From NCBI GenBank assembly GCA_013791955.1, contig VMSW01000005.1:186001-250000 (forward strand): a stretch of 64,000 nucleotides of DNA. Direction: 5' to 3'. The DNA comes from Propionicimonas sp. (GTDB lineage: Bacteria > Actinomycetota > Actinomycetes > Propionibacteriales > Propionibacteriaceae). The translations under genes were made by a program, and so were the position numbers. Positions 17,286-38,200 of the stretch are shown here, one piece after another. A model generated the notes under the pieces. The model saw only the letters and a list, made by a program, of their open reading frames with translations. It did not search any database and had not been told where the DNA came from. Position 1 is the first letter of the stretch. Each line of letters starts with the position of its first letter.

Positions 17286-17291
17286 AGAACG

Positions 17292-21172: not shown

Positions 21173-22576
21173 GTGAATAAGTGCAAGAATGCCGCCGTGG
21201 GAACGGACGCAAAGGTGGTGCCTACGGGCGCCCGGCATGAGGTCGGAGTAGATGAACTCTTCTTCTCCACGACTGACGCCCGAGGGATCATCGATCAGGC
21301 GAACTCTGTCTTCGTCCGCCTGACCCGTCGGTCACGGGATGTCTTGATCGGTGCACCGCACAACATCATTCGGCACCCGGTCATGCCCGGTGGTGCCTTC
21401 CTGCTCATGTGGGACACCCTTGAAGCCGGCGAGCCGTTCTGCGCCTACGTAGACAACCTCGCTGGCGACGGCAGCACCTACGGTGTGTTCGCCACGATCA
21501 CCCCCCTCGGCGATGACTACCTTTCGGTGCGCGCCCGTCCCTTCGTGGACGGACTGCACGATGCCGCCTTCTCTCTCTACGGCGCGGTGCGTCCGATGGA
21601 GCTGGAGCTGCGCGATAAGGGCTGGAACCCGCACGAAGCTGCAGTGGTCGGTGCGGAGAAGCTCGGTGAACTGCTGGTCGGTGCTGGTATCCCGTCCTAT
21701 GAGGAATTCATCTGGAAAGCCCTGCCGGCTGAGGTTGAGGCTCGACTGGAAGTTGCCAGCGGCATCGCCAAGCGTCCGCTGGCCACCGGCGACCTGGCTG
21801 GCATGCTCGACATTGCGGTCAAGATCGACGAGGCACTCCAATTCTGGGTGCACCGCCTGGACGATCTGCAGCGGGTAGCTGACGCGCTGCTGGCTGCGGC
21901 ACCGCAGTTCAGTCAGACGATGGAAGCCAACGCCCACGTCGCCGATCGGATCAACGAAAACGACGCGGAGGGCTTCTTCAGCTCCGCGATGGTCTACCTG
22001 CGCGTTTGGGCCCAGATGGCGCCCGAAGTTGCTGGCATCGTCACCGAGTTGCTGGTTCAACTCGACGAGTTGCGTCGCAGCTGTGCCCAGACCCGATTCC
22101 GCATCGCTTTGGCGGTGCTGCACAACTGGACCGTTGGGCAGTTCGTGGTTGAGCTCATCGACAACGTGCCCGGCTCCGACGAAGCCCGTCCGGCGATTGG
22201 TCAGCTCGGCCGTGCGCTCGACGAAGGCCTGGCGACCACCGCCGAGCAGAGCCAGCGAAATGCGAGCCTGGCTACGGCCGCCGCCGAGCGGATCTCGACC
22301 CTTCGAGACCTCCTCGACCTGCCGCAGACCATGATTCGCGAGTGGCTGTCGCGGGCGGATCGCTCGTCGGCGACGTTCATGGAGATGGTCGACACCATTT
22401 CGGCCCAGGTGGATCGCACCCAGGCTGATATCGACCTGCTCGGTTCGCTTTCGGATGAGTGCCGCCGGATCGCCGTCCCGGTGGACACCCAGGTAGTCGA
22501 AGAGCAGACCGAGCTGTTGCGCTCGTTGCTGGCCGCTCACCAGGGCCATCGTCCGCGCTACGCGATGTCGAAGTAA
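21173..22576 (+). CDS. PAS-domain protein, aerotaxis-receptor-type PAS
   Basis: Up to 467 residues; the start is unclear, with GTG codons at 21173 and 21197 and no good ribosome-binding site at either. Residues ~25-125 are a PAS domain of the Aer class: FFSTTDARGIIDQAN, then GAPHNIIRHPVMPGGAF, MWDTLEAGEPFCAYVDN. Aer binds FAD through this domain in redox/energy taxis. The remaining ~330 residues are predicted helical, but I do not see the conserved methyl-accepting signalling hairpin, HAMP or membrane helices. It may be a soluble sensor with an unknown output. No chemotaxis genes are nearby. Monocistronic by appearance. Confidence 0.65.
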   Translation: MNKCKNAAVGTDAKVVPTGARHEVGVDELFFSTTDARGIIDQANSVFVRLTRRSRDVLIGAPHNIIRHPVMPGGAFLLMWDTLEAGEPFCAYVDNLAGDGSTYGVFATITPLGDDYLSVRARPFVDGLHDAAFSLYGAVRPMELELRDKGWNPHEAAVVGAEKLGELLVGAGIPSYEEFIWKALPAEVEARLEVASGIAKRPLATGDLAGMLDIAVKIDEALQFWVHRLDDLQRVADALLAAAPQFSQTMEANAHVADRINENDAEGFFSSAMVYLRVWAQMAPEVAGIVTELLVQLDELRRSCAQTRFRIALAVLHNWTVGQFVVELIDNVPGSDEARPAIGQLGRALDEGLATTAEQSQRNASLATAAAERISTLRDLLDLPQTMIREWLSRADRSSATFMEMVDTISAQVDRTQADIDLLGSLSDECRRIAVPVDTQVVEEQTELLRSLLAAHQGHRPRYAMSK

Positions 22577-22798
22577 CCAAGACTGAGCCGTTAGCCGCTT
22601 CGACCGACTGGTCGGGGCGGCTTTCGGCTTTTCTGGGCCGAGCCGGGGCCGGGACAGCCGTCTGGCTAAGATGAGTCTCGGAGTGTCGGGAAGCCTGGTC
22701 GACGATCTCTTCGGCGAGCGCCGAAGGGTAAGAAAGCTAGGGAGGCCCGATGACATTCCCCAGTACCACCCGCCAGCCGATCCGCAGCGGAGGCAGCC

Positions 22799-23251
22799 AT
22801 GCGTGCCGGTGAGATCGCTGAGCCCTATCCCGTGGTCGGTATCGACACCTCTGCTCTGGTGGCTGCCCGCCTGATCGCCCGGGATCGCCTGCCCGGCTTG
22901 GTGGTGACCGATGAGAGCGGCAAGCCGATGGCGGTGCTGCCAGCCTCAGAAGTGGTGCGGTTCATGGTGCCCGACTACGTCCAGGACGATCCGGCGCTGG
23001 CCGGGGTTCTCGGTGAGGTGCCCATTGAACGGATTGCGGCCCGGTTGGCCGCAGCGCGAGTGGCCGACCTGTTGCCGTCCCGGCCGGCCGAGCTGCCGGT
23101 GATGAACGTTGGCGACACCGTCGTTGAGCTGGCGGCGATCATGGCACGCCTGCGCAGCCCGTTGTGTGCGGTGGTGGACGGCCAGAAGGTGCTCGGCGTG
23201 GTTACTGCCGCCCGGCTGCTGGAGCTGGTCTGTGGGGACGAGTTGCCATGA
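22799..23251 (+). CDS. CBS-domain pair protein
   Basis: 150 residues from ATG 22799, with GGAGG eight bases upstream. Two CBS motifs are visible: one from about residue 10 to 60 (DTSALVAARLIARDRLPGLVV) and a second from about 95 to 145 (VMNVGDTVVELAAIMARL, ending LGVVTAARLLELV). CBS pairs bind adenine nucleotides and gate enzymes or transporters. The stop overlaps the start of the following ion transporter (ATGA), so this is probably its dedicated regulatory subunit. Confidence 0.8.
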   Translation: MRAGEIAEPYPVVGIDTSALVAARLIARDRLPGLVVTDESGKPMAVLPASEVVRFMVPDYVQDDPALAGVLGEVPIERIAARLAAARVADLLPSRPAELPVMNVGDTVVELAAIMARLRSPLCAVVDGQKVLGVVTAARLLELVCGDELP

Positions 23252-24525
23252 TGATTGTGGCGATCATCGTCTTCGCCATCGTCTACGTCCTGATCGCCAC
23301 TGAGCGAGTGAACCGGGTAGTGGCCGCCTTGGCTGGAGCCGGGGTAATCCTCGCGGTGGGCGTGGTCGGCTCGGATGATGCCTTCTTCTCCCACGACACC
23401 GGGATCGACTGGAACGTCATCTTCCTGCTGTTCGGGATGATGGTGATCGTCGGCGTGCTCCGGCAAACAGGCGTCTTTGAGTACGTGGCGATCTGGGCGA
23501 CGAAGAAGGCCAAGGGGCAGCCGTTTCGGGTGATGACATTGCTGTCGTTGATCACCGCCGTGGCCTCGGCTGGCCTCGACAACGTGACCACGGTGCTGCT
23601 GATCGCGCCGGTAACGCTGCTGGTCTGCGAGAAGATCGGCGTGCGACCGGTGCCGTTCCTCATCGCCGAAGCGTTGGCGTCCAATATTGGTGGTACCGCC
23701 ACTCTGGTCGGTGATCCACCCAACCTGATCGTGGCCAGTCGTTCCGGCTTGGGCTTCAACGACTTCCTGGTGAATCTGGCCCCGATAGTCGTGGTGATGC
23801 TGATCGCTTTCGTGGCGCTGTCGCGGTTCCTATTCCGCAAGGACTTCGTCGCCGATCCCGAACAGGTTGCGCAGGTGATGGAGCTGGACGAGCGGGAGGC
23901 GATTCAGAACCGTCCGCTGCTGATTCGGTCGCTGATCGTGCTGGCGCTGGTGCTCATCGCTTTCACCCTGCACGGCGTGCTGCACCTGGAGCCGTCGGTG
24001 GTGGCCCTGCTGGGTGCCGGACTGCTGGTGGGGATCAGCGGGCTACAGCCAAGGACGTACTTGGTTGATGTCGAGTGGGAGACGCTGCTGTTCTTTGGTG
24101 GCCTGTTCATCCTGGTCGGCTCCCTGGTGAAGACCGGCGTGATCGATCACTTTGCCTCGGCCATGGTCTCGGCCACCGGCAATAGCGTGCCGGCCGCGAT
24201 GATGCTGCTGCTGTGGGGCTCGGCGGTGCTGTCAGCTTTGGTCGACAACATTCCCTACGTGGCGACGATGACACCGGTGGTCGACCAACTCGTCAGCCCC
24301 GGCGGACCCTTCGCCGGCCAGAACGGGCTGTGGTGGGCGCTGCTGCTCGGCGCCGACCTTGGTGGCAACGCAACCGCCATCGGCGCAAGCGCCAATGTGG
24401 TGGTAGCCGGTATCGCCAAGAAGAGTGGCCACCCGATTTCGTTTTGGGAATTCACCCGCTACGGCGCGGTGGTGGCAGTGGTGACCCTGGCCATCGCTAC
24501 GCCTTATCTGCTGCTGAGGTACTGA
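23248..24525 (+). CDS. ArsB/NhaD-type ion transporter (IT superfamily)
   Basis: 425 residues starting at 23248 inside the CBS gene's stop; a longer frame would run through the CBS gene. About eleven to twelve membrane segments. The family-typical motifs are EALASNIGGTATLVGDPPN in the first half and GADLGGNATAIGASANVV in the second, the inverted repeat hairpins that build the substrate site in ArsB/NhaD/citrate transporters. It may carry arsenite, Na+/H+ or an organic anion; no ars genes are near, so substrate stays open. Linked CBS protein suggests nucleotide-dependent control. Confidence 0.82.
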   Translation: MMIVAIIVFAIVYVLIATERVNRVVAALAGAGVILAVGVVGSDDAFFSHDTGIDWNVIFLLFGMMVIVGVLRQTGVFEYVAIWATKKAKGQPFRVMTLLSLITAVASAGLDNVTTVLLIAPVTLLVCEKIGVRPVPFLIAEALASNIGGTATLVGDPPNLIVASRSGLGFNDFLVNLAPIVVVMLIAFVALSRFLFRKDFVADPEQVAQVMELDEREAIQNRPLLIRSLIVLALVLIAFTLHGVLHLEPSVVALLGAGLLVGISGLQPRTYLVDVEWETLLFFGGLFILVGSLVKTGVIDHFASAMVSATGNSVPAAMMLLLWGSAVLSALVDNIPYVATMTPVVDQLVSPGGPFAGQNGLWWALLLGADLGGNATAIGASANVVVAGIAKKSGHPISFWEFTRYGAVVAVVTLAIATPYLLLRY

Positions 24526-24644
24526 GCACTTCGGTGGGCCACGGCCTGGGCTGGGGATGGGGCGAGTTAGGCTGCCACGTGCCGTTGGCCTTGCGCTGGT
24601 AGCGAGGTGCGGCAGATTTCTCCAACGAAGCAGAAGGATCACCC

Positions 24645-26312
24645 ATGGCAGGAATCGTTGACGACCCGTCGTGGTGGCGGCACGCGGTGGTCTATCAGAT
24701 CTACCCGCGGGCCTTCGCCGACAGCGACGGAGATGGCGTGGGCGACATCAACGGGATCCGCTCCCGGTTGGCGTATCTGACCGAACTTGGAGTCGACGCG
24801 ATTTGGATCAATCCGTGGTACCCGTCCCCGATGAAGGACGCCGGCTATGACGTGGCCGACTTCCGAGCCATCGAGCCGATCTTTGGCACCATGGCTGAGG
24901 CGGAGGCGCTGATCAGTGAGCTGCATGCGGCCGGTATTCGGCTGATCCTCGACATCGTCCCCAACCATTTCTCCGACCAGCACCCGTGGTTCGTGGACGC
25001 GTTGGCTGCAGGCCCCGGTTCGCCGCAACGAGCTCGCTTCATCTTCCGCGACGGCAGAGGCAGCGACGGCGAGCAGCCGCCGAACGATTGGCGCAGCGAG
25101 TTTGGCGGCTCGGCCTGGCAGCGGATCACCGAGGCTGACGGCCGTCCGGGGCAGTGGTATCTGCACTTGTTTGCCCCTGAGCAGCCCGATGTCGACTGGA
25201 CCAATCCCGAGGTGCGCGCCGATTTCGAGACCACGTTGCGGTTCTGGTTCGACCGCGGTGTGGACGGCTTCCGCATCGACGTGGCCCACGGCCTGAGCAA
25301 GCATCCTGACCTTCTCGACGCCGAGGGGATGCCCTTTCCGCTGCCGCCGTCGGCGCCAGACGATCTGGATCACCCGCACTGGGACCGTCCGGAGAATCAT
25401 GAGATCTTCCGCTCCTGGCGGCGGGTGGCGGACTCCTACCCCGGTTCGCGAGCGTTTTGTGGGGAACTTTGGATCGGCCGCGATCACCGCCTGGTGGCCT
25501 ATTTGCGCCCTGATGAGTTGCATACCGCCTTCAACTTCGGCTTCTTGACCGCGCCTTGGCAGGTGGCTGACCTGCGGGCCAGCATCGACTCGACGATCAC
25601 CTCGCATGCCCAGGTAGGGGCGCCGCCGACCTGGGTGATCGGCAACCATGACGTGTGCCGTCCGGCTTCCCGGTATGCCCGCGACCCATCGTTGGCCGCG
25701 GTCACCGACCGAGCATTGAGTCACTTCATCGATCGCGGGGCCGACTACGTGGTGGGGGCCAAGCGGGCGCGCGCGGCGGCGCTGCTCAGCTTCGCGTTGC
25801 CTGGTAGCGCCTACCTCTACAACGGCGAAGAACTCGGCCTGCCCGAGGTGGAGGACCTGCCAGCCGCGGTCAAGCAGGATCCGATCGCGGTCAACAGCGG
25901 TGGGCTTGAGTTGGGCCGCGACGGCTGCCGGGTGCCGCTGCCGTGGACCACCGAGGGGGCCAGCTTCGGCTTCTCCCCGGTGGGGGCGGCCGAGCCGTGG
26001 CTCCCGCAGCCGGCCGACTGGGGTGGCCTCAGCGTGCAGGCGCAGGACGGCCGCGCCGGTTCGATGCTGGAGCTGTACCGCGCCGCCCTGGCTTTGCGGC
26101 GGGAACTGCCAGCGCTGGGTGAGGGTGACCTGTCGTGGGTGGAGACAGGCGCGGAGGTGTTGGCCTTCACTCGCGAGCCTAGTTTCGCCTGCTGGGTGAA
26201 CTTCGCCGCTGAGCCGGTGGCGCTCCCGGCGGGCTGGCAGGTGTTGCTGGCCAGTGAGCCGGTCAGTGAGGGTCGGTTGGCGCCCTACGCGGCGGTGTGG
26301 TTGGGCCGTTGA
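24645..26312 (+). CDS. GH13 alpha-glucosidase (oligo-1,6-glucosidase/alpha-glucosidase type)
   Basis: 555 residues, AGAAGGATC upstream of ATG 24645. (beta/alpha)8 GH13 motifs: VVYQIYPRAFADSDGDGVGD near residue 15, DIVPNH, nucleophile D212 (GFRIDVAHG), acid/base E274 (CGELW) and D336 (GNHDV). The QIYPRSF-type start and calcium-site-like DSDGDGVGD mark subfamily exo-acting glucosidases. No signal peptide, so cytoplasmic hydrolysis of maltose, isomaltose or sucrose-type sugars or trehalose-related exchange. Its 3' end overlaps the convergent YwaF-like gene by 28 bases. A second, different GH13 enzyme lies at 44149-45819. Confidence 0.88.
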   Translation: MAGIVDDPSWWRHAVVYQIYPRAFADSDGDGVGDINGIRSRLAYLTELGVDAIWINPWYPSPMKDAGYDVADFRAIEPIFGTMAEAEALISELHAAGIRLILDIVPNHFSDQHPWFVDALAAGPGSPQRARFIFRDGRGSDGEQPPNDWRSEFGGSAWQRITEADGRPGQWYLHLFAPEQPDVDWTNPEVRADFETTLRFWFDRGVDGFRIDVAHGLSKHPDLLDAEGMPFPLPPSAPDDLDHPHWDRPENHEIFRSWRRVADSYPGSRAFCGELWIGRDHRLVAYLRPDELHTAFNFGFLTAPWQVADLRASIDSTITSHAQVGAPPTWVIGNHDVCRPASRYARDPSLAAVTDRALSHFIDRGADYVVGAKRARAAALLSFALPGSAYLYNGEELGLPEVEDLPAAVKQDPIAVNSGGLELGRDGCRVPLPWTTEGASFGFSPVGAAEPWLPQPADWGGLSVQAQDGRAGSMLELYRAALALRRELPALGEGDLSWVETGAEVLAFTREPSFACWVNFAAEPVALPAGWQVLLASEPVSEGRLAPYAAVWLGR

Positions 26313-27085
26313 TCGGCTGAGGGCGCCGGGGAGGTTGGCGCACGGCGGGCGCGCAACACCCACGGTAGGTACAGCAGCGTCCACACGACCGCTAGCAGGC
26401 CGATCAGCACCGGGACGTAGAAGTCACCAGCGAAGGCGTTGATGACCTCCAGGGGCGATCCTGGGGCGCCAGCGTTGAGGAACCAGAAGTTGGTATTCCA
26501 GGTCTGGTTAGCCAGATAGCCGACGCCAGCGGCCACGGCGGCTATCACAGTGACCCGCCACAGATTGCGGACGTTGGGAATCAGGTCGCCACCCACCAGC
26601 CGCATCAGCACGTAGCCGAAGATGAGGGCGTGAATGGCGAAGCTCTGCCAGGTGTACATGTTCAGGATCGGCCGGGTGGCCCAATCGGGGAAGATGTCGG
26701 CGGCCAGAGCGCCCCACCAGCCCAGGGCGTAGAGGAAGTCGCCCGTCCAGCGATTCGGGCGCAGGGAGTCGATGAAGACGGCCGCGGTGGTGATCGCACA
26801 CAGATGCAACGGCAGGATCTCGGGGCTGTAGGCGCCGGTGGCCAGATAGCTGAGCTGCCGGGTCACCTCGAGTAGCAGCACCGACCAACCGACCACATGG
26901 CGTAGGCGTTTGCGGCGGGCATCGTCGGCGCGGCGGTAAGCCAGCACCAACGCTGCGATGCCGATGGCCAGCACGGCGAGCACGCCGAGATGGATTGCGG
27001 AGAACGTTCCGAAGCCGACCCCTGCGGGCATCGGCTGGTTCTGTGGGACGAAGAAGTAGTCCCAGCTCCAGGTCAGATCATCCAC
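26285..27085 (-). CDS. TIGR02206/YwaF family membrane protein
   Basis: 266 residues with six or seven predicted helices. The start WSWDYFFVP, the LPLHLCAITTA segment in the third helix and the following DFLYALGWWGALAA match the YwaF (TIGR02206) family, related to eukaryotic TMEM164. The conserved His/Cys in LHLC sits within the membrane. Function in bacteria is not known; TMEM164 relatives act in lipid acyl transfer, but carrying that over is speculation. Divergent from the TspO-like gene, with a 272-base shared upstream region. Confidence 0.75.
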   Translation of the reverse strand: MDDLTWSWDYFFVPQNQPMPAGVGFGTFSAIHLGVLAVLAIGIAALVLAYRRADDARRKRLRHVVGWSVLLLEVTRQLSYLATGAYSPEILPLHLCAITTAAVFIDSLRPNRWTGDFLYALGWWGALAADIFPDWATRPILNMYTWQSFAIHALIFGYVLMRLVGGDLIPNVRNLWRVTVIAAVAAGVGYLANQTWNTNFWFLNAGAPGSPLEVINAFAGDFYVPVLIGLLAVVWTLLYLPWVLRARRAPTSPAPSADQRPNHTAA

Positions 27086-27357
27086 GGCAGTTGCCGTCCG
27101 GCGCCTGGTCGGTGGCGCCTCGCCTGCGTTGACACAGGCTCATTGTGCAGCCTGGACGTCGCCGACGCAGTTAGGCGACACGGTGCTGATTGACGTGGTC
27201 ATTACCCGGGCCCTCGGGACGGTATCAACGATCTTTGCCGGCCCGCCCGCAGGCGCGGCATGACAACAAATCTCCATAGCGTCCCCGGGACGGGCGCCCA
27301 GGGGCCTAGCGTTGAAGTACCTCGTCACCCCCAATCGCCGACAGCGGGAGGTAAATA

Positions 27358-28170
27358 ATGCAGCGCGTGAGCGTCAGAGCTTCGATTAAGGCACTCATCG
27401 GCCTCACCTATGTGGTGATGATCGCGGTGAACGCGCTGGCTAACGCGCTGCCAATCAACGGGCGAACGACAGGTGCGGTCTCCGATGCCTATCAGAACCT
27501 GTTCGCTCCGGCCGGGGTGACCTTCGCCATCTGGGGCGTCATTTACCTGCTGCTCGGCGCGCACGTGCTCTACCAGCTTGGCCTGTTCCGTGGCCCAGCC
27601 GAGGGCGAGGCTCAGCAGACCCAACGGGTGGCGATGTTGGAACGGGTGGGGGTGCTGTTCTCGTTGTCCTCGCTGGCCAATGCCACCTGGATCCTCAGCT
27701 GGCACTACGAACTCATCGCGGTCTCCACGGTGCTGCTGGCCACGATGCTGGTGTTGGTCATCGTGATCATGCAGACCCTCCAAGCCGCCGACCTCTCCAC
27801 CCGGGATGCGGTCTTCGTCCGGTTGCCCTTCAGCGTGTATTCCGGCTGGCTCACGGTGGCCACTATCGCCAACATCACGGTGTGGTTGGTGAGCATCAAC
27901 TGGGACGGTTTCGGGATCGCCGAAGCGACCTGGGCTGCGGTGATCATCGCGGTTGGCGCGGTCATTGGCACCGCCTTCGTCCTGCGAAAACGGGACATCG
28001 CCTACGGGCTCGTCCTGGTCTGGGCCTACCTGGGCATCTGGATCAAGCACACTTCTGGGGCTGGTTTCCAAGGGGCCTACCCAGTGGTGATCGCCACCAC
28101 ATTGGTTGGCATCGCCGCCTTCGTCGTGGCGGGCGTCGTGGTCGCGCTGCGCAGCCGGAGCGCTCGTTGA
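27358..28170 (+). CDS. TspO/MBR-like (tryptophan-rich sensory) membrane protein
   Basis: 270 residues, about eight hydrophobic segments. The stretch NALANALPINGRTTG followed by FAPAGVTFAIWGVIYLLL resembles the first part of TspO/MBR proteins (P-x-x-x-F-x-x-x-W-x-x-x-Y), and LSSLANATWILSWHYE resembles the helix-2 W-rich motif. At 270 residues it is longer than classic TspO (~160), as in the extended bacterial group. A GGGAGG site precedes ATG 27358. Ligand (tetrapyrrole or other) is unknown. It is the last ordinary gene before the accessory island. Confidence 0.65.
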   Translation: MQRVSVRASIKALIGLTYVVMIAVNALANALPINGRTTGAVSDAYQNLFAPAGVTFAIWGVIYLLLGAHVLYQLGLFRGPAEGEAQQTQRVAMLERVGVLFSLSSLANATWILSWHYELIAVSTVLLATMLVLVIVIMQTLQAADLSTRDAVFVRLPFSVYSGWLTVATIANITVWLVSINWDGFGIAEATWAAVIIAVGAVIGTAFVLRKRDIAYGLVLVWAYLGIWIKHTSGAGFQGAYPVVIATTLVGIAAFVVAGVVVALRSRSAR

Positions 28171-28193
28171 GGGCGTGGCCCTGCGGGAGCGGA

Positions 28194-28487
28194 TCAGGCG
28201 GTCTGGAGCGGCTGGATCTGGTCGAGGGCTGTGCCTAGGCGGTCCCTTTCAGTCTCCAGGTCGTAGCGGTTCTGAAGGTTGAGCCAGAACCGGTCGGTGG
28301 TGCCGAAGTAGCGGGCAAGCCGCAGCGCAGTGTCGGCGGTGATGCGTCGCTTGCCGTGGACGATCTCGTTGATTCGCCGTGGCGGAACGCCGATGGCGAC
28401 CGCGAGCCGGTTCTGCGAGAGCTCGAGCGGCTCGAGGAACTCCTCGGCGAGGATCTCTCCTGGGTGGATTGGGGCGATGGTGGTCAT
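28194..28487 (-). CDS. higA: HigA-type antitoxin (XRE/VapI family)
   Basis: 97 residues from ATG 28487 with GGAGGTG seven bases upstream. It opens with IHPGEILAEEFLEPLELSQNRLA, the hallmark of HigA/VapI antitoxins, then an XRE helix-turn-helix (about 24-75: IGVPPRRINEIVHGKRRITADTA) and FWLNLQNRYDLE. It should bind and neutralise HigB and repress the operon. The toxin gene precedes it by 11 bases, the usual toxin-first order of higBA. Confidence 0.9.
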   Translation of the reverse strand: MTTIAPIHPGEILAEEFLEPLELSQNRLAVAIGVPPRRINEIVHGKRRITADTALRLARYFGTTDRFWLNLQNRYDLETERDRLGTALDQIQPLQTA

Positions 28488-28498
28488 GGTCACCTCCT

Positions 28499-28780
28499 TC
28501 AGTGGTAGTCGACGATCTCGACGCCGGTGGGTCCGGCGTCGGTCCAGGTGAAACAGATCCGCCATTGCTGGTTGATCCTGATGCTGTGTTGCCCTGCACG
28601 GTCCCCGCGAAGGGCTTCGAGCCGGTTGCCAGGCGGAATCCGCAGGTCCTCCAAGTTTTCGGCGGCGTCGAGCATCACCAACTTGCGCAGCGCAACCCGT
28701 TCGATCCGGGGATCAATGGCCTTGCTGCGTTCGCGTGACCACAGCAGCTCCGTCGCCTGGCTCCGAAACGACCTGATCGC
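28499..28780 (-). pseudogene. higB: HigB toxin gene, canonical start codon lost
   Basis: The reading frame encodes a full RelE/HigB-type toxin: IRSFRSQATELLW at the start, LDAAENLEDLRIPPGNRLEAL in the middle and QWRICFTW...VEIVDYH at the end, 93 codons in all. The codon where family members start (before I-R-S-F-R) is GCG at 28780-28778; no ATG, GTG or TTG occurs in frame upstream before a stop. The first usable start is TTG at 28681, which would give 60 residues and remove the N-terminal helices. A single T-to-C change of GTG would explain this. Either the toxin is inactive, or a rare start is used. The downstream antitoxin is intact. Confidence 0.75.
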
Positions 28781-28798
28781 GTCGCCACTATAACGCGG

Positions 28799-28811
28799 GG
28801 CGTCATACGCC
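28799..28811. promoter_or_regulatory. Possible HigA operator and higBA promoter
   Basis: GGCGT-CAT-ACGCC is a perfect 5-bp inverted repeat, 19 bases upstream of the higB reading frame. On the minus strand a TATAGT hexamer (28787-28792) follows it and could be the -10 element, with no clear -35. An XRE antitoxin would be expected to bind such a palindrome. Position supports the call; binding is inferred. Confidence 0.4.
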
Positions 28812-28908
28812 GCTAGTCACGCCATTGACAGGCGCTGACCCAGGATCAACGGAGCTAGTAGCTACCGCCCATGCGTTCAGTAGGGGCGGTACACGTCGGT
28901 GCGGTGGT

Positions 28909-29016
28909 CGCGACATCTTTCAGGAAGTGCCAGGTAGGCCGGTTGACCTCATCACTTACGGCGGCCTCAAGGTTGGTATCGACGATGACATCCGGACCGA
29001 GGCGGTGCTGCTCTGA
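28909..29016 (+). pseudogene. Remnant of MNT-type nucleotidyltransferase antitoxin
   Basis: The last ~35 codons of a reading frame ending at 29016 read RDIFQEVPGRPVDLITYGGLK...EAVLL, matching the C-terminal part of MNT (MntA) minimal nucleotidyltransferases, whose usual ending is RxVDLV..GLxP...EAVxL. The catalytic GSxARG...SDxD region that should lie ~60 residues earlier is not found in any frame upstream. Its stop overlaps the next start (TGATG), the usual coupling to a HEPN toxin gene. Hence a truncated copy, not a working antitoxin. Confidence 0.6.
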
Positions 29017-29183
29017 TGGACCGGAAGGTGGCAAAGGAACTCCTCCACGTCCGCGATTGGCTAGATCGCGCCTGGGGTGTTGTCGCCCGCGGCTAAGAGG
29101 TTTGCGCAGCGGACGGATTGCTTCAGGAAGCCAGCGACTTCTTGGTGATGAAGTTGGGCGAGGCCGCGGTCGGTCGCCGGTGA
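29016..29183 (+). pseudogene. HEPN-domain toxin (HepT) pseudogene
   Basis: From ATG 29016 the frame reads MDRKVAKELLHVRDWLDRA...ARG, then a TAA stop at 29094, then continues in the same frame with ADGLLQEASDFLVMKLGEAA before TGA at 29181. The two parts together follow HepT (DUF86) proteins, where K-D-A-Y-L-A-D-x-L-L-Q-E-A-G-x-S-L-M-M-K-L-G-E-A-A occurs. The catalytic R-x4-6-H motif of the C-terminal half is missing. With the preceding MNT remnant it forms a decayed MNT-HEPN toxin-antitoxin operon. Confidence 0.7.
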
Positions 29184-29336
29184 GGCCAAGACCCAACCGG
29201 GAGGGTCGAGAATGGCTGCCGCGATTCATTCCGGTTTGTCGGCTGCGGCTGCTAGCGTTGGTGGTACCAGATCCCCCTCGCCTCTCCACGATGCGCACTA
29301 GGGGGATTTTCTTCGTCCGGGCCCTACGATCAGGAC

Positions 29337-30371
29337 ATGCCCGCATCACCACGCCGATCCGCGCGTCGAGCGCGCGGCAGCGACGCGTACGCGAAGCCGG
29401 CGCTCACCCATGAGCAGCTCGTCGAGCGCATGCGGTCCCGCGGCCTGGCCATACCCGACCAGGACCGGGCTTTGCGGTACCTGCGGCAGATCGGCTACTA
29501 CCGGCTCTCGCCGTACATGATTCCCTTCCAGCAAGGTCGTGGGGACCACACCTTCCAGCCCGGAACCAGCTTTGACGATGTCCTTGGTCTGTATGTGTTC
29601 GACCGCCAGCTGCGGCTGCTCGTTCTCGACGGTCTGGAGCGCATCGAAGTCGCGGTCCGCGCCAACGTGACCGACACGATGTCGGCTGTGGGCGGCCCTC
29701 ACTGGTACCTGGATTCGACGTGGTTCAAGTCGTTGTCCGACCACCAGCGCTTGATCGATGACGTCCGCACCGAGTGCCATGACCAGTTGAACCGACCCGC
29801 CGAGGACGCCGGAGACCAAGTGATCTTTCCCTCAGCGTTGGAGCACTACCTGACCCGGTACGGACAACCCGAACTTCCACCATCGTGGGTGATGACCGAA
29901 ATGCTCACGATCGGCCAGCTCTCGCACATGGTGGGCAACATCAGCCAGCGCCGCTACCGGACCGAGATCGCCCGCGGGCTCGGCATCAACGACCCGCTGC
30001 TCGTCTCCTGGCTACGCACCTACAACCGGGTGCGCAACATCTGCGCCCACCATGGCCGGCTCTGGAACGTCGGCCTTGGTGTCTACCCAGCACTCCCCAC
30101 CGCCCCGACCGTGCCGTGGCTTGCAGACCGCGACGCCATCGCCAAGTACCCCGACAGGGCCAAGCGGCTCTACCCGGTCCTGACCTCGATCCAGGCCATC
30201 CTGCTCACCGTGTCACCACACAGCAGCTGGGCGCAGCGCCTAATCGACCTGATCGAAACACACCCGGACCTGCCGCTACGCGGCATGGGCCTCTTCCCCG
30301 CATGGTCGGAGGACCCCTTCTGGATTAGGCAGCCCTCAACCCCCGAAGCCGCTGGCGCCACCACCTCGTAG
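29337..30371 (+). CDS. Abi family protein (Abi_2, AbiD/AbiF-like)
   Basis: 344 residues. Residues ~20-250 follow the Abi_2 (PF07751) pattern: ALTHEQLVERMRSRGL, YLRQIGYYRLSPYM, YVFDRQLRLLVLDGLERIEVAVRA, SWVMTEMLTIGQLS and near residue 235 RNICAHHGRLWN. That R-N-x-C-x-H-H motif is the HEPN-type R-x4-H of AbiF/AbiD proteins and suggests RNase activity in abortive infection. A basic N-terminal tail (RRSARRARGS) precedes it. It stands alone between toxin-antitoxin remnants and the STAND gene. Some Abi_2 proteins pair with noncoding RNA; the 150 bases upstream show no obvious structured element by eye. Confidence 0.85.
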   Translation: MPASPRRSARRARGSDAYAKPALTHEQLVERMRSRGLAIPDQDRALRYLRQIGYYRLSPYMIPFQQGRGDHTFQPGTSFDDVLGLYVFDRQLRLLVLDGLERIEVAVRANVTDTMSAVGGPHWYLDSTWFKSLSDHQRLIDDVRTECHDQLNRPAEDAGDQVIFPSALEHYLTRYGQPELPPSWVMTEMLTIGQLSHMVGNISQRRYRTEIARGLGINDPLLVSWLRTYNRVRNICAHHGRLWNVGLGVYPALPTAPTVPWLADRDAIAKYPDRAKRLYPVLTSIQAILLTVSPHSSWAQRLIDLIETHPDLPLRGMGLFPAWSEDPFWIRQPSTPEAAGATTS

Positions 30372-31165
30372 GCCGGGCGGCGCGAAGACCGGGCTCTTCG
30401 TCCGGAGGAGATCCCAGGCGCATTCCAGCGCTGACCGTAGCGGGCCTAGCCTCCACGAGGTCAGAGCCACCAGCCGACTCGAGCGAACAGCTCCCTCGCA
30501 ACCAACCCGCTCGACCATCCCACCACCCCTCCCAGCCGGCCTCCCTCGCCGACACCATCGCCCATCGACACCACCTACGGAACTCTCCCCACTGAAAGCT
30601 CCAACAACCCAGCCGAAGTCCGATACGCCCGGTGCAAATCGGAGCTGAGGCATACCCCGGAGCAGTCGCGCTTGCGTCTACGGATGCACCGGGGCGACAA
30701 GTCCGCCTGGTCCGCGTGGTGGAGGCGAGTGATCGCGACAGCCGCTCCAGCGGCGCGATTGACTCCCGGAGAGCAGTGCACCCGATGGTTCGCACTTCAT
30801 CAGTCCTCATCAGCCGATATCGTGCGAAGTACGCCTGAAGAGAAGCCGGTAAAGCTGTGGATGTCACCGAAGCTCAAGACCCCAGAAGGGTCTGCCATGG
30901 CCGCGGGGCTTCACCCATTCACGTCAGACACGAGCGGATCTCGCCCGCGTGGAGGCGGGGCTGGACACAGGCATTCAGAGACCGTCGCCTCGGAGCGGGA
31001 TTGGTCGGACGTTCGAGTTCGGCCATCGAATGGACGAAGCCGCGATGCCATCGCCGACCTGGCGACTCGCATCCAGGGAGAACACGCTGATGGTGGTCAG
31101 GAGCTCGTGGCCCCAGGCGCTGCAGGCAGCGGAGCCGCACATCAGGTTGATGGGGCTCGATTGAG
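30372..31165. other. 794-base stretch with no recognisable gene
   Basis: Several open frames cross this stretch on both strands, but their translations are Arg/Ser/Pro-rich, overlap one another and show no family motif or convincing ribosome-binding site. It is much longer than other gaps in the window and sits between two defence genes. It may hold the promoter of the STAND operon, a decayed gene, or an RNA. I see no tRNA, insertion-sequence end or repeat in it. Confidence 0.5.
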
Positions 31166-34100
31166 ATGCGGGGGGACAAACCGGGAGGCGGGTCGGCGAG
31201 GCGGTCCGGAGGTTCGCTGCAGGTTAGGGCGTCGCGCGATGGCGACCGGTTTCACTATGTCTGGGCCGCCAGCCGCCTGCTTCGCCTACTCGACCCCGCC
31301 ACTCGACTTCGCCAGGTCACGGTAGAGGGGATTGGAACGGCGCCGGGTGAGCCCGAGCCAGATGGGTCGGAAGTCATCGACGTCATGGAGTACTACGGCG
31401 ATCCTGACGAGCCGTTCTCCAAGGTGGTTGTGACCCAACTCAAGCACTCAACACTTCGGCGCGATTCGCGCATGGGCATCGCTGATGTTGGTGCGATCCT
31501 CGAAAAGTTCGCCGTCCTCGATAGCTCAACGGGGAGACTCCGCGGCGACCATCCGCAAGCCCAGATCCACTTCGAGATTGTGACTAATCGACCGATCCAC
31601 CCAAACGTGCGCGAGGCGCTCGCTTCGATTGCATCTGGCGAGGTGCCGACGCCTGAATCTAGCGCCGACGACCTCCTTGGCCGAATCGGGGCCACATGCG
31701 ACGCCGCAGCATCGCTATGCCGCAGGATCAGCGTGAGTGGGGAAGTGCCTAGCGTTGCCGCGCTAAGGCCGTCGCTGGATCAGAAGGTGGTCGGCTTCAC
31801 CGCTGACCCCGATCTTCGCGTCTCGGCGCAGTTGATCGAACTCGTGGCCAAGCGGGCTGGCACGGAGGCGAGTGGCCCGATCCTCCTCGCGGATGTCGTC
31901 GCAGCCTTCGGCGCTCGCCAGGATGACCTCTTTCCTGCCCCCAATCTGCTGGAGCAGGTGCCGATCGTTTCGCGGGAGGGCTATTCGACGCTCGCGGACG
32001 AGATCATGGCAGCAAGATCACCCGTTGCTGTCGTGTCTGAGGGTGGAGTCGGCAAGAGCACCTTCGCTAGGGCGTTGCCCGACGTTCTTCAGGATCGGGC
32101 GGTGGTGGTCATCTATGACTGTTTCGGTCAGGGCTCCTATCGACGACCTGATCGGACACGCCATCGTCACCGAGACGGCTTGGTCCAGATCGCATCTGAG
32201 TTGGCAGGCCACGAGCTGAGCGTCCCTATCCTTCCAGCGGCCGGTGTCCAACCGGAAGAGTATGTGAAGCTGTTCGTGGAGCGTCTGAGAATTGCGGGCC
32301 AGCTACTGGAACAACGGAGCGGACGGCATCTAGTGGTCGTCGTCGATGCCGCTGACAATGCGGCGATTGCCGCATCGGAAAACGCGGACGGTCGATCGTT
32401 CGCTCGCGACCTCCTGAGGCTCGGAGATGGGCTTCCGGCGAATGTGCACTTGGCAGTCACATGCCGGCCTGAGAGGCTGGAATCACTGGACCCACCTACG
32501 GGGATTCAAGAACTGAGATTAGTCGCGTACTCGTGTGAAGAGACTGCGGCAGTGGTCAGGAGCGTCTTCTCTGATGCCCCGGAAGAGGACATTTCGGAGA
32601 TCCACACACGGACGTCTGGCAACCCGCGGGTTGTGGCGGCCGCACTCGAGGGGACGGGCTCGATTTCGGAGTGCCTTCGCACGCTGGCCGGGCTGCCCGC
32701 TGGAGCGTCTTCGCCGATGGATTCCCTACTGCAGTTGCGCGTCAACGACGTCTTCGAACACTCGGGAGCCGGTCGACCCCAACTGGAACGCGTCGCTCAG
32801 TTGCTTACTCTTCTGCGTCCCAGCGTTCCGGTCTCCGTACTTGCAGCGTTATCTGGCTGCCCAGTCGCTGGCATTCGAAGTTTCGTGGCCGATCTGGGGC
32901 GCGGGCTCATCCTCGATGATGATGCTGTCCAGTTTCTGGACGAGCCAACTGAGACATACTTCCGTTCGAAGCACCCTGCGCCCGCCGATCTGGCCGAAGA
33001 CGCAGCGAACACGCTTCGGAGGCTCGCCGCGACATCCAACTACGCGGCAGCATCGCTCCCCGGAGTGATGTGGAGTGCAGGGCTGCACGACGACTTGCTA
33101 CAACTCGCAGCTGGTGACGATGCGCTGCCTGTGGACAACGAAGTTGAGCGGAGACAGGTCGAACACCTTCGGATCGATTTCGCGCTCAAAGCGGCGGTCC
33201 GCCTGGGCCGTGCAGACGCAGTGGTCGAACTTGCGCTCCGTGCAGGCGCGGCTCGGGCTGGAACAGAACGGCGGTTGAGGATTCTTCGTGATCATCCGGA
33301 CTTTGCTGGCGAGAGTCTCGACGCGCGGCTACTCGACGAGTTGCTAGCGTCACGCCAGCTGCCTGCGGATTGGCCCGGCTCGACCCTCGGTGCCGAGGCA
33401 GCAATGCTTGCGGCTTCCTCAGAGCGTCTCGATTCGGCTCGGAGCCGCTCCCGGCTCGCTGTGGAGGCGCTTCGGGCGTGGGCGCATGCGCCGCACGATC
33501 CGTACGAGCGGCGCAACATTGAGCCCGCGCATCTCGCGCACATCACGATGGCCCTGCTAAGAACTCGCGGCCCGCAGGTGGCGACGGACTACATGGCGCG
33601 CTGGAGGCCAGCTCACTTCGTCCTTCAGGCCGCATCGGAGGTTGCTCACACCTTGGCATCCCGAGGCGAGGTTGAAGTCATGACCGCGATGGTCAAGGCG
33701 ACTCGTCACCCAGGCGTGATCTTGGGTGTGTTCGGTGAACTCCAAAGGCTTGGGATTGCCGTTGACGCCGAGGTTGTGGGCTCCGCCTGGGGGACCCTCC
33801 GTGACATTCGGGTGCCGCTCATCAGCCAAGACTTCGATGACCGCCCGGCAGAAGATATTGCCTTCCGGGGTGCATCCTGGCTTGCGGCAATGGCGTTTCG
33901 GTATGGCCTCGCTGCTGCAAGCGAGTTGTCCCTGCGATTGGAGCACACCCTCCCCGCCGGCCCACCGTTCGGGCTCGGTGACCGCTACGGCCAAGGTCGG
34001 CTCGGTCTCTTGCTAGCCATCGCGTTGCGTATGGAGTTGCAGGACGAGCCACTAACGATCAGTCATTACCGACCACCGGCTGTGCCCGTGGAGAAGGGGA

Positions 34101-37100
34101 AGTACGACCGATCCCGATCGAACGACGAGGACTTGCAGCGGCACCTCGAACCCACCCTCCCCTGGTTGTCGGGATGGGCGAAGTTTGCTCTGGGTCGCCT
34201 GGGCCCGGAAGACGGGGGCGCTGTGCTCCGCCGCTACTCCGCAGGGCGGTTCGGGCAGGACGGATTCACCCTGGAGCTTCGGCTGGCCCGTCAAATCGCG
34301 CCCCAGATCGCCCACGGGATCTCGGGCGCCTCCCTCACGGCTGATTTCGAGAGCCTCATGGCGGAGGCGTCGGCCGCAACGCCCGTGGTGGCTGCTCTGG
34401 ACCTGATCCCACCACTACGAGGCGACGTTCGATTTGAGAGCGCAGTCCTTCGAACGGCGTCCCTCGCGCGGACCGCTATCGACACGGGAAGCGACTTGGC
34501 CGACGTTAAGGCTGACTCGTTCATAGGGATTGCCCGAGGCATGTACGCCTATAGCGCAGCTGAAGCCATGACCTACTACCAGGCGGCCGTCGAGGTCGCT
34601 TCAAGTGCGGGAGACGACACCTTCCAGCGATGGAGCGCGATCGTTGCGCTGACAAGGGCTGCGTCTGGTACTGCGCACGCGGAGGCCGTCCGGCTCGCAA
34701 GCCACGTCGTCCGAGCTGCGGAGCTGGTTCATCCCGCTCTCTACGACGGGTTCGACGAGAAGCAGTTGACTGAGGCGCTGTCACGCCTCGGAGGCAGCGA
34801 GGTGTTCAGGTACCTCTCCCAGTGGCGTGAACGCTGCTTCGGGGACCTTGCGTGGCAACTCCGAGGAGTAGCGCTCGGCGAGAGCGGCCTCTTGGCCGGC
34901 GCTCCGCTACTAGGGATAGTCCTGGCGCCGTTCTCCTCGCGTGTCCCCTTATCCGAGGCGCTGAGCCAGGTGGCGGAAGGTGGCCCGATTGACAGCGGCG
35001 TGCTGCAGACTGCGAATAGCCTCGCAAGCCGAATCGGTGAGGAACTTGACGAGCGCTTCAAAGTCGCTGACCCATGGCTGCCTCGGACTCCACCACGGCA
35101 GGCTCCTTCGGCCGGCCTGGGGCTGAGCAGCGACGACTCCGCGTCAGGCGAGGATAAAGCCGTGGCCATTGACGAATGCAGGGCGCTCATCGCCACGCTC
35201 GACCTGACCAAGCCTGAGGGCGTTGACGCCGCAATCGTAGCTATCGACGTCGCTCGCCTATTCAGCGTTGACCTCCTTCTAGAGGCGGCTGCCGCCACAC
35301 CGGAGTTGGCTCGGGGTGCAGTCTTGAGTTGCATCTCGGAGTCGGGCTCGGTGCCGGAGTACCAGAAGGCGCGCATTCTGAATGCAGCCTTGACGTGGCC
35401 TAGGAGGTCGCGGGCCTTCGTGCAGGCGCTCGTCAGCGCGGTGCGACGCTACGTGGGGCACAACGGTGGCGCGATTCTCGGGGGTAACTGGTCCGGGCTC
35501 GACCTGGTGGGGGCTGCCAGTCTCTTGGGAACCACTGAGCGCGAAATCAGGTTCATGGCACTTGAGCATGTGAGCCCGGAGGAGTCGTTCCGGGATGCGG
35601 ACAGCTGCTATCGGCTCGCAGGCGGAGTTGCCCAGATTCTCCAGCCAGCTCAGGCGGCCGCAGCGTTGTCGCGGGCACTCACTTCCCTTGAACGGGACCT
35701 TGGCGTGGAGCCATCGTCGCCATCGAGCAACGGAGAACCCATACCCCTTGAGGTCGCGGTTGGCGGTTTCATTTGGGCCGCCCTTGGTGACCCGCGAATA
35801 GAGACTCGGTGGCGAGCTGCGCACGCAGTAAGGACTGCTGCCGAGCTCGATTTGACCGAGGTGCTCCGCGCGCTGAGCGAGGCCGTCCGCGAACCAGCTC
35901 CCGACGGCTTCACCGATCCTCGCTTCCCCTTCTACTCTATCTACGCCGCAGAGTGGCTCCTCCTCGCAGTTGAGCGCGCCGGACGCACCGCTGCCGATCA
36001 TGTGCTTCCTTTGATGAGTGCGGTGGCACACCTGAGCGAGAAGTATCCGGACCATGCAAACATCCAAGGCCTCTGCCGGCAGATTGGAGTTATCGCGGGT
36101 ATCGATCCGGATGACCAGCCCGGAACGGATTGGGCGTCCATGCTGCAAGCCCCGCTCGATCTTCCGTCATGGGAGCGCCCACGCGCGCCCAAGCCCTTCA
36201 CCCACGGGGCCCCCAAGTCCGAATACCGGTTTGGCTTCGACGAGGACGAAGAGTTCATCGCTCGACTGACGGAGTCGATGCAGACTGAGCACCAGGCCGT
36301 CTTGGTCGCCGCCAGTTCGTTGATCCTTGACGAATGGGGGTGGCGGGGCGCCGAGGCTCTAAACCAAGACCCACGTCGAAGCGCATCCACATACTCGGAG
36401 GGCGAGACATTCTCCTATCGCGCGGACGTCCCGAAGGCCGAAGACCTTGACTACTACCTGACGCGCAACGCAGTGCTCACCATCGCTGGAAGGCTGATGC
36501 GGACGGTCGCGCCCTACCGCGATCCCGAGACAGGAGACATCTCGGTACTGGACTGGCTCCGCCGGTTTGACCTTGCTCGGGAAGACCGCCTTTGGACATC
36601 AGACCTTCGCAGTCCTGTGCCCACTACTCTCGGGGTCTTTCTTGGGCGGCAAGCAGAGGGCGCTTCCACCGGCGCTATTCAGGAGACTGACTACGCGAAC
36701 GCGCTCCATCCCTCGGCCGATTGGGTGACCGTCCAGCAATCCGCCTCGTACGCGCAGTATGAGCGTTCCGCCGAGGTCACCATCTCGAGCGCGCTGGTGG
36801 GGGACGAAGGGAAGGCCGCGCTCATTCGTTCGCTCCAGACCTCCAAGGGGTATCACGCGTACCGACTGCCCTCGGCGAACGACGAGGAGTCTGAGATCAC
36901 TGACCCTCCGTTTACCCTGCTCGGCTGGATTGACGTGCCCTATGCAGAGGGCGGGATGGATCGGCATGACCCGTTCGCCGTGGACCTCCAGGCGCTGCTT
37001 CCGGAGTTCTCCGACTCGGTCATGCGCGCTCTCGACCTTGAGGTTCGAAGTGGTACGGAATGGATGCGCGAGGGTGGCCTTGAGTTGGTCTGCGTCGGCG

Positions 37101-37396
37101 AGACATGGGCGGACATGGTGCAGGGTCGCGAGCCAACGGGCTCACAGGGATATCGGCTTCGGATCAAAACAGATGCCCTCGACGAGGCCTTGACCTCACT
37201 CGATTGCTCCCTCGTGGTTGATGTCCGACTGCGCAGGCGAGACCGGAGTTGGAGGGACACCGAACTCGAAGAGAACGAAGGAGAGGGCCGCGATCATGAC
37301 GACTTCAGGATCTTCACCTATCGACCAGGCGAGGGATGGAGCGACTTCCACGGCCGTCTTGGAACTCGGCAAGGCGATCGCTTCGGCGCTGGATGA
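31166..37396 (+). CDS. Giant STAND NTPase with N-terminal Cap4-like nuclease domain (Avs-like)
   Basis: 2076 residues from ATG 31166. Residues ~25-150 resemble the Cap4/DUF4297 PD-(D/E)xK nuclease: GDRFHYVWAASRLLRLL, a VEG glutamate (54), IDVMEYY (D72, E75) and TQLKHS (Q91-x-K93), which is the (E/Q)xK half of the active site. Residues ~270-490 are a P-loop STAND module: Walker A GGVGKST (293-299), VVVVDAADN Walker B (D394), CRPERL and the SGNPRV motif. The remaining ~1500 residues are helical repeat-like with no family motif I can name, ending in a beta-richer part. This nuclease-NTPase-sensor order is that of Avs antiviral proteins, which bind a phage protein and oligomerise. It is the main gene of the island and is followed by an overlapping partner. 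Confidence 0.75.
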   Translation: MRGDKPGGGSARRSGGSLQVRASRDGDRFHYVWAASRLLRLLDPATRLRQVTVEGIGTAPGEPEPDGSEVIDVMEYYGDPDEPFSKVVVTQLKHSTLRRDSRMGIADVGAILEKFAVLDSSTGRLRGDHPQAQIHFEIVTNRPIHPNVREALASIASGEVPTPESSADDLLGRIGATCDAAASLCRRISVSGEVPSVAALRPSLDQKVVGFTADPDLRVSAQLIELVAKRAGTEASGPILLADVVAAFGARQDDLFPAPNLLEQVPIVSREGYSTLADEIMAARSPVAVVSEGGVGKSTFARALPDVLQDRAVVVIYDCFGQGSYRRPDRTRHRHRDGLVQIASELAGHELSVPILPAAGVQPEEYVKLFVERLRIAGQLLEQRSGRHLVVVVDAADNAAIAASENADGRSFARDLLRLGDGLPANVHLAVTCRPERLESLDPPTGIQELRLVAYSCEETAAVVRSVFSDAPEEDISEIHTRTSGNPRVVAAALEGTGSISECLRTLAGLPAGASSPMDSLLQLRVNDVFEHSGAGRPQLERVAQLLTLLRPSVPVSVLAALSGCPVAGIRSFVADLGRGLILDDDAVQFLDEPTETYFRSKHPAPADLAEDAANTLRRLAATSNYAAASLPGVMWSAGLHDDLLQLAAGDDALPVDNEVERRQVEHLRIDFALKAAVRLGRADAVVELALRAGAARAGTERRLRILRDHPDFAGESLDARLLDELLASRQLPADWPGSTLGAEAAMLAASSERLDSARSRSRLAVEALRAWAHAPHDPYERRNIEPAHLAHITMALLRTRGPQVATDYMARWRPAHFVLQAASEVAHTLASRGEVEVMTAMVKATRHPGVILGVFGELQRLGIAVDAEVVGSAWGTLRDIRVPLISQDFDDRPAEDIAFRGASWLAAMAFRYGLAAASELSLRLEHTLPAGPPFGLGDRYGQGRLGLLLAIALRMELQDEPLTISHYRPPAVPVEKGKYDRSRSNDEDLQRHLEPTLPWLSGWAKFALGRLGPEDGGAVLRRYSAGRFGQDGFTLELRLARQIAPQIAHGISGASLTADFESLMAEASAATPVVAALDLIPPLRGDVRFESAVLRTASLARTAIDTGSDLADVKADSFIGIARGMYAYSAAEAMTYYQAAVEVASSAGDDTFQRWSAIVALTRAASGTAHAEAVRLASHVVRAAELVHPALYDGFDEKQLTEALSRLGGSEVFRYLSQWRERCFGDLAWQLRGVALGESGLLAGAPLLGIVLAPFSSRVPLSEALSQVAEGGPIDSGVLQTANSLASRIGEELDERFKVADPWLPRTPPRQAPSAGLGLSSDDSASGEDKAVAIDECRALIATLDLTKPEGVDAAIVAIDVARLFSVDLLLEAAAATPELARGAVLSCISESGSVPEYQKARILNAALTWPRRSRAFVQALVSAVRRYVGHNGGAILGGNWSGLDLVGAASLLGTTEREIRFMALEHVSPEESFRDADSCYRLAGGVAQILQPAQAAAALSRALTSLERDLGVEPSSPSSNGEPIPLEVAVGGFIWAALGDPRIETRWRAAHAVRTAAELDLTEVLRALSEAVREPAPDGFTDPRFPFYSIYAAEWLLLAVERAGRTAADHVLPLMSAVAHLSEKYPDHANIQGLCRQIGVIAGIDPDDQPGTDWASMLQAPLDLPSWERPRAPKPFTHGAPKSEYRFGFDEDEEFIARLTESMQTEHQAVLVAASSLILDEWGWRGAEALNQDPRRSASTYSEGETFSYRADVPKAEDLDYYLTRNAVLTIAGRLMRTVAPYRDPETGDISVLDWLRRFDLAREDRLWTSDLRSPVPTTLGVFLGRQAEGASTGAIQETDYANALHPSADWVTVQQSASYAQYERSAEVTISSALVGDEGKAALIRSLQTSKGYHAYRLPSANDEESEITDPPFTLLGWIDVPYAEGGMDRHDPFAVDLQALLPEFSDSVMRALDLEVRSGTEWMREGGLELVCVGETWADMVQGREPTGSQGYRLRIKTDALDEALTSLDCSLVVDVRLRRRDRSWRDTELEENEGEGRDHDDFRIFTYRPGEGWSDFHGRLGTRQGDRFGAG

Positions 37397-37982
37397 TACT
37401 GACACCCTCGGGCGCTGGATGGCCCACTACCTGGCTGAGCAACTAGATGCCCTAGATGCGCTGCAGGGAGCCGAGTTGGCTCAGGCCGAGTCAGAGGTTG
37501 CCGATCTGATCATCCGATTGTGGAGACATCGTCGAAGCTTGCCGACACGGAGCAGCGCACTTGCTGCCGTGGATAGCGTCGAACGAGCGATAGCTCGCCT
37601 CGATCCCGATCGCCCGATGTGGGGGTACTACTCACCGTTCGGTGATGAGCCGACGCCTGGCGAGCAGATTACCGAGACCGATGCGTCCCTCAGGGTGGCG
37701 CTTGCGATTGACCGGGCCGCGGGCGACGTCGTCCATGCTTTGGTTGGTTATGCCGCAGCTACAGCGGAGGTCACGGACGCTGAATGGGTGCAGCTTGGTC
37801 TGCGCGTTGGCGATGAGACCCTCCGGCGAGTTCGGAGGATCCGTTTCGAGACTGCCTCTGCCACTGTCGATGACTGGAGTGCTCTGCTAACGGAGAGAAC
37901 CGCAACCGCGTTTGGCCTGTTGAAGGACCTGAGTGTGGCGCTGAACGGAGTGGATCCTGCGGAGGCGGAGGAGCTTACCTGA
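37296..37982 (+). CDS. Small partner of the STAND NTPase, unknown family
   Basis: 228 residues from ATG 37296, with GAGAGG nine bases upstream; the frame could start at 37218 but lacks a site there. The start lies inside the STAND gene, overlapping its 3' end by 101 bases in another frame, so translation is linked. Mainly helical and acidic: an N-terminal half (GRWMAHYLAEQLDALDAL, IRLWRHRRSLPTRSSAL), a central MWGYYSPFGDEPTPGE loop and a C-terminal helical bundle. No nuclease, membrane helix or known domain is visible. The overlap suggests a regulatory or accessory subunit of the same defence system. I do not recognise the family. Confidence 0.7.
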   Translation: MTTSGSSPIDQARDGATSTAVLELGKAIASALDDTDTLGRWMAHYLAEQLDALDALQGAELAQAESEVADLIIRLWRHRRSLPTRSSALAAVDSVERAIARLDPDRPMWGYYSPFGDEPTPGEQITETDASLRVALAIDRAAGDVVHALVGYAAATAEVTDAEWVQLGLRVGDETLRRVRRIRFETASATVDDWSALLTERTATAFGLLKDLSVALNGVDPAEAEELT

Positions 37983-38012
37983 CCTTGCACCGTGCCTAGA
38001 TCCACGTCGTGA

Positions 38013-38023
38013 CGGGGTGACAG
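38013..38023. repeat. 11-bp copy of the tRNA-Pro 3' end
   Basis: CGGGGTGACAG here is identical to 38128-38138, the acceptor/T-arm end of tRNA-Pro, 115 bases away and in the same orientation. It sits just past the last island gene, where an attachment-site remnant would be expected if the island integrated into the tRNA 3' end. Eleven bases is short, so chance cannot be excluded. Confidence 0.3.
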
Positions 38024-38072
38024 CGTGCGCAGAACCCCGCACGTGTCTGCTGCGGTTAGGATGCAATACGCT

Positions 38073-38119
38073 GAAAGCCGCTCCGATTAGGAATATAATC
38101 CCTAGCCAGAGCGGCTTTC
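38073..38119 (-). terminator. Terminator hairpin downstream of tRNA-Pro
   Basis: GAAAGCCGCTC at 38073-38083 pairs exactly with GAGCGGCTTTC at 38109-38119; the 25-base interior can pair further between TAGG and CCTA. It begins four bases after the tRNA CCA end and reads in the tRNA's direction into a TTTC, so it most likely ends tRNA transcription. The inner loop is AT-rich. Confidence 0.65.
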
Positions 38120-38122
38120 TTG

Positions 38123-38200
<78 letters not shown>

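Follow-up and report, generated by a model that had tools for sequence, protein, structure and literature searches.

The 64,000-nucleotide stretch of Propionicimonas sp. DNA analyzed here (contig VMSW01000005.1, positions 186,001 to 250,000; hereafter the window) very likely carries a two-gene AVAST type 3 (Avs3) antiphage locus, which, by analogy with characterized Avs3 systems, would act as they do. The larger gene, avs3a, encodes a nuclease-STAND-sensor protein homologous to SeAvs3 (Salmonella enterica Avs3, PDB 8dgc), and avs3b, which begins inside it, encodes a small accessory protein. The locus is a divergent but otherwise ordinary example of a known family, and the suggestions in a preliminary description of this DNA that the protein may form a new Avs branch and that its trigger may be new are not supported: PADLOC matches it to Avs3a alone, SeAvs3 is its sole significant PDB match, its sensor model has the SeAvs3 fold, and Avs3b lies adjacent. 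The features of the locus are as follows:

31166..37396, + strand: avs3a, nuclease-STAND-sensor protein of the Avs3 family, 2076 residues (open reading frame, profile, PDB-sequence and tree evidence)
31217..31945, + strand: Cap4-type PD-(D/E)xK nuclease region, N-terminal, residues ~18-260 (SeAvs3 homology, residue conservation)
31958..32965, + strand: STAND nucleoside triphosphatase (NTPase) region, residues ~265-600, with GGVGKST, VVVVDAADN and SGNPRV (SeAvs3 homology, motif conservation, sub-threshold AAA_16/NACHT matches)
32966..37393, + strand: sensor region, residues 601-2076, mainly helical with strands toward the end (SeAvs3 homology, model of residues 1140-2076)
37296..37982, + strand: avs3b, all-helical accessory protein, 228 residues (PADLOC, NCBIfam, shared start position, model)

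Assignment of the giant protein to the Avs3 family

The 2076-residue open reading frame (ORF) of the preliminary description is present at 31166-37396 (+), starts with ATG and contains no internal stop, and direct reading of the sequence revealed no alternative in-frame ATG, GTG or TTG before the first conserved residues. The motifs named in that description were all found, each occurring once in the protein (EYY at residue 75, QLKH at 91, GGVGKST at 293, VVVVDAADN at 390 and SGNPRV at 484). Because the key residues are kept across 89 homologues (K93 and K297 in 89/89; D394, Q91 and D72 in 88/89 each), the motifs are not due to chance. The window protein retains the presumed catalytic residues of the nuclease (D/QxK) and of the Walker A and B motifs, namely D72, Q91, K93, G294, G296, K297 and D394. 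An ORF at 30672-31325 (+) that overlaps the start of avs3a had no family match in the PADLOC, Pfam and NCBIfam scans and is probably not a gene.

Avs3a was the sole family matched by the protein in the PADLOC scan (1051 bits; matches to E 10) and the top match in NCBIfam (NF041816; 1166.2 bits over the whole protein). No Avs1, Avs2, Avs4 or Avs5 profile was listed by PADLOC to E 10 or by NCBIfam to E 1, in searches in which the HMMER filters drop most weak matches; both libraries presumably contain these profiles. In a sequence search of the PDB, SeAvs3 was the only significant match (E 4.3e-224, 751 bits), with just one further row to E 10, at E 0.46. The alignment with SeAvs3 covers residues 16-1233 and 1337-2054 of the window protein, the latter with an i-Evalue of 2.2e-52, and a profile built from 11 homologues aligned with SeAvs3 in a single continuous stretch (2-2091). 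Further, a structure model of residues 1140-2076 (the last 937) predicted the SeAvs3 fold. The Avs-type nuclease-STAND-sensor layout claimed in the preliminary description is thus borne out by SeAvs3 homology over effector, NTPase and sensor. The ~1500 residues that it had described as helical repeats are mainly helical, but not throughout, as the model has strands of at least 3 residues over ~1853-2059. Overall, the assignment to Avs3 follows from the profiles, the homology to SeAvs3, the predicted fold and the adjoining Avs3b, and not from the tree alone.

Several observations weigh against this assignment. The NF041816 score is far from the curated cut-off of 2800 bits, and the Avs3b match of the adjoining gene in NCBIfam (NF041817; E 4.1e-28, 98.8 bits) misses the cut-off of 200. 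A Pfam scan of the N-terminal 260 residues returned no match, nuclease families included; PF14130 (Cap4_nuclease) matched below its cut-off in 3 of the 8 Avs3 N-termini scanned, the window's own not among them. Klebsiella variicola L006 (NZ_CP089387.1), which matches SeAvs3 end to end (4396 bits), was used as the stand-in for SeAvs3 in identity comparisons, and the window protein is 27% identical to it overall, with 22% over residues 1231-2076 vs 36% over residues 1-640, the sensor being the most divergent part. The root mean square deviation between the sensor model and SeAvs3 is large (6.3 Å over 835 residues), and therefore the fold match does not prove that the binding surface is shared. 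Judged by sequence, the protein is best placed in the broad Avs3 family and not in the NCBIfam equivalog NF041816.

Two other readings of the gene were weighed. A role outside defense, as a STAND regulator or a housekeeping NTPase, would fit the generic Pfam matches of the NTPase region, which are of AAA_16/NACHT type only and all sub-threshold, but near-full-length homology to SeAvs3 and defense-type neighbors (Abi_2 here, Gabija beside a Kocuria relative and a PifA-like gene near a Leucobacter relative) leave this reading scarcely credible. It is also very improbable, if less so, that avs3a is a degraded or inactive Avs3 relic on a variable segment: all 2076 codons are open, the effector and P-loop residues are kept, and avs3b is open as well, with a start position common to six close relatives. 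Set against these points are the rarity of the gene among relatives, with 2 of 146 searched genomes matching (window's own included), and the existence of a broken copy elsewhere, on the Halomonas megaplasmid L007, where Avs3a is split over two reading frames by a frameshift that is either real or an artifact of the record.

Position of the window protein among Avs3a relatives

A genome-collection scan returned 439 relatives. The 80 best were retained, and the 77 of these that gave ORFs of >1950 residues were used, leaving out loci L048, L060 and L071. Plasmid homologues were taken from 17 matching records, 11 of which were retrieved and 10 used, the split Halomonas L007 being left out. Together with one further locus and the window protein, these made an alignment and FastTree tree of 89 sequences; L004/L005 (from one same-order genome, with an internal TGA in the weaker piece) and L098 (a contig-edge fragment) were not used. 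The sensor alignment contained 66 of 78 listed sequences, and rows filled to <40% in a given part were omitted from part-wise trees.

The window protein groups with six actinobacterial Avs3 proteins (from Leucobacter, Microbacterium, Kocuria, two Demequina and Rathayibacter) with support of 100 and 39-48% identity, and the next most similar protein outside this seven-member group is 29.6% identical. The stem of the group is long (0.77 changes per column), and its sister, in this tree of Avs3a relatives only, comprises 20 further Avs3 rows, of which 18 are from Actinomycetota and two from Rhodococcus plasmids. The support values are those of FastTree and thus local only, the tree tool flagged long branches that meet, at Rathayibacter L061 among other places, and unequal residue composition in many rows, and the root is unsure, as the four chosen outgroup rows do not fall on one side of a branch.

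Trees of residues 1-640, 641-1230 and 1231-2076 each recovered exactly the same seven proteins with support of 100. The wider actinobacterial group was recovered exactly in the trees of residues 641-1230 and 1231-2076 and was off by four rows in that of residues 1-640. With the group of seven intact in all three part-wise trees, nothing points to an exchange of the sensor. A new Avs branch with a foreign sensor was thus rejected, as the group persists in all part trees and both the sequence and the predicted fold of the sensor match SeAvs3.

These results bear on the view of the preliminary description that the protein may be a new Avs branch, with a sensor for some phage protein outside the known Avs triggers. 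In its favor are the long stem of the group, the greater divergence of the sensor than of the effector part, the score far under the NCBI Avs3a cut-off, and the composition of the tree, from which Avs1, Avs2, Avs4 and Avs5 are absent, so that the tree taken alone, with its root unsure, would be compatible with a very early branching. However, the sensor aligns with SeAvs3 over residues 1337-2054 and is predicted to fold alike, the N-terminal, middle and C-terminal trees each keep the seven proteins together, and Avs3b is present. We therefore consider a new branch improbable; the protein is placed within a characterized Avs family, Avs3, an outcome that the preliminary description had itself named as counting against novelty.

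The partner gene and the variable segment

The gene directly 3' of avs3a matched Avs3b in PADLOC (E 5.7e-30). Its likely ATG, at 37296, lies ~100 nucleotides (nt) inside avs3a, and in all six close relatives the avs3b start codon is 100 or 97 nt inside avs3a; 85 of 87 pairs share the same frame offset between the two genes. ORFs in a range from 400 nt 5' to 3000 nt 3' of each avs3a end were searched with a hidden Markov model (HMM) for which three Avs3b proteins served as seed, and Avs3b was found beside 87 of the 89 Avs3a genes, the window's included. Within that range the HMM did not recognize Avs3b at L014 and L016, a distant Avs3-like pair from Agrobacterium and Janthinobacterium plasmids with other small genes downstream. 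Among 396 same-phylum genomes, in what was apparently the same draw for both searches, the same three matched Avs3a and Avs3b (E <=0.001), the window's own included; in one of the other two the match is a contig-edge fragment. This steady pairing suggests that Avs3b has a function.

An alignment of 75 of the 87 Avs3b proteins found (window and genome-collection loci, 180-300 residues) identified L24, G25, D36, W41, M42, H44, W76 and L102 as the most conserved positions. The structure model of Avs3b is all-helical, with no convincing relative in the libraries searched, and a literature search for 'Avs3b', to which most subscription papers were outside scope, found no paper. Of these findings, the near-constant company of Avs3a and Avs3b most deserves experimental attention and may prove the more useful result.

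With the Klebsiella Avs3b as query, 13 plasmid records were matched, of which two from Qipengyuania and one from Fibrella are absent from the plasmid Avs3a list. On one Qipengyuania plasmid (L130:7956-8702) the Avs3b-like gene has no adjoining annotated Avs3a and is adjoined by a tyrosine recombinase gene. In the Fibrella record (L131), the Avs3b gene is overlapped by an ORF of 371 codons that follows an IS3 element; by its position we take this ORF as a putative Avs3a remnant. No match was found in 50,697 phage records by tblastn with the window protein and the Klebsiella Avs3b as queries.

The pair lies on a variable segment, listed here with the features in it and at its edges:

28202..38100, no strand: variable segment with the avs3a-avs3b pair, ~9.9 kb vs ~1.25 kb in same-genus genome G007 (comparison with same-genus genomes)
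28194-28565, - strand: helix-turn-helix protein (HTH_3, E 1.4e-10), antitoxin-like by eye (domain match)
29272-29307, + strand: abiF RNA match, full length, ~30 nt 5' of the Abi_2/AbiD gene (32.3 bits, gathering score 37)
29337-30371, + strand: Abi_2/AbiD gene (PADLOC, Pfam)
38124..38200, - strand: tRNA-Pro (cgg), boundary of the segment (tRNA annotation)

G007 is the best match among 30 same-genus genomes, the window's own included. Window positions 15001-28201 and 38101 onward are largely collinear with it, at 88-97% identity over matched pieces, apart from one extra 1.5 kb in the G007 flank. The 1.25 kb at the segment site in G007 holds an ORF read by eye as a PAS-GGDEF protein. The G+C content is 63.7% in the segment and 65.0% and 65.7% in the flanks. 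Within the genus, the region flanking tRNA-Pro on the side away from the metallophosphatase gene looks variable, with the PAS-GGDEF-like ORF in G007 and Abi_2 and Avs3 in the window. The preliminary description had placed the gene in a defense island by a tRNA, and this agrees with a variable, defense-bearing segment that has Abi_2/AbiD within it and tRNA-Pro at its boundary. Insertion at the tRNA by an integrase is not supported: a search for exact repeats only found no copy of the tRNA region longer than 11 nt in 27901-38055, and no integrase was found among the segment ORFs scanned with PADLOC/Pfam, some small ORFs lying outside the scan.

Two same-genus genomes carry related pieces. In G014 an abiF RNA match (L125 12354-12389, -) on the same side of tRNA-Pro adjoins just a short piece of Abi_2 protein, and in G024 a stretch (L124:13096-13701) 84% identical to window 28207-28813 lies ~2.5 kb from its tRNA-Pro flank.

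Proposed mechanism and comparison with known systems

Avs3 in particular reads the large terminase subunit, a ligand supported by the title of PDB entry 8dgc. By analogy, the C-terminal sensor of the window protein would bind a conserved phage protein in the infected cell, the large terminase subunit being the likeliest. Tetramerization of the STAND ATPase would then pair the Cap4-type nuclease domains at the N-termini into active dimers, and these would degrade phage and host DNA and so abort the infection. According to published accounts, binding of a viral protein to the SeAvs3 sensor leads to tetramerization and nuclease-domain dimerization (PMC11291478, PMC10952240, PMC12198126), and Avs1-Avs4 cleave phage and host genomes upon recognizing large terminase, portal or another phage protein (PMC12931631).

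The locus adds a deep sub-branch to the known Avs3 family, and the divergent sensors of the seven-protein group offer a way to ask what features of the terminase are recognized. It is conceivable, if unlikely, that in this group the sensor has been re-aimed at a terminase type specific to phages of its hosts or at another phage protein, and that the receptor has two obligate components, needing Avs3b for sensing or assembly. If so, Avs3 would generally be a receptor made of two proteins, one of which has escaped notice.

All six close relatives (Leucobacter celer, Microbacterium sp. Leaf151, Kocuria salsicia, two Demequina and Rathayibacter sp.; L017-L021 and L061) have avs3b, like the window. 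Of the four loci whose neighboring genes were scanned (L017, L018, L019 and L061), the three that gave a match differ from the window in these genes. After avs3b, Kocuria L019 has Gabija genes (15956-19932), Leucobacter L017 has a PifA-like gene as well as one that matches Upx weakly (15979-21916), and L018 has a weak Upx match downstream; the scan gave no match for the downstream genes of L061. On the Shewanella baltica plasmid L015 (avs3a at 2257-8559), the aligned N-terminus is without E54, D72 and Q91, and the P-loop and sensor are retained; an effector change or loss is possible, as is a misaligned divergent end.

Cap4 of CBASS and DUF4297-HerA are not known to have a STAND ATPase and giant sensor in the same chain. 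Their nuclease fold class is the same as that of the SeAvs3 nuclease domain, and the SeAvs3 and EcCap4 nuclease domains are reported to be top structural matches of the DUF4297 dimer (PMC11291478). The closest likeness is to SeAvs3, with which the window protein has in common the domain order, the catalytic and P-loop motifs and the predicted sensor fold, and to Klebsiella L006, which likewise has an overlapping avs3b downstream. It differs from both in sequence, with ~27% identity to L006 and 751 bits against SeAvs3, compared with 4396 for L006.
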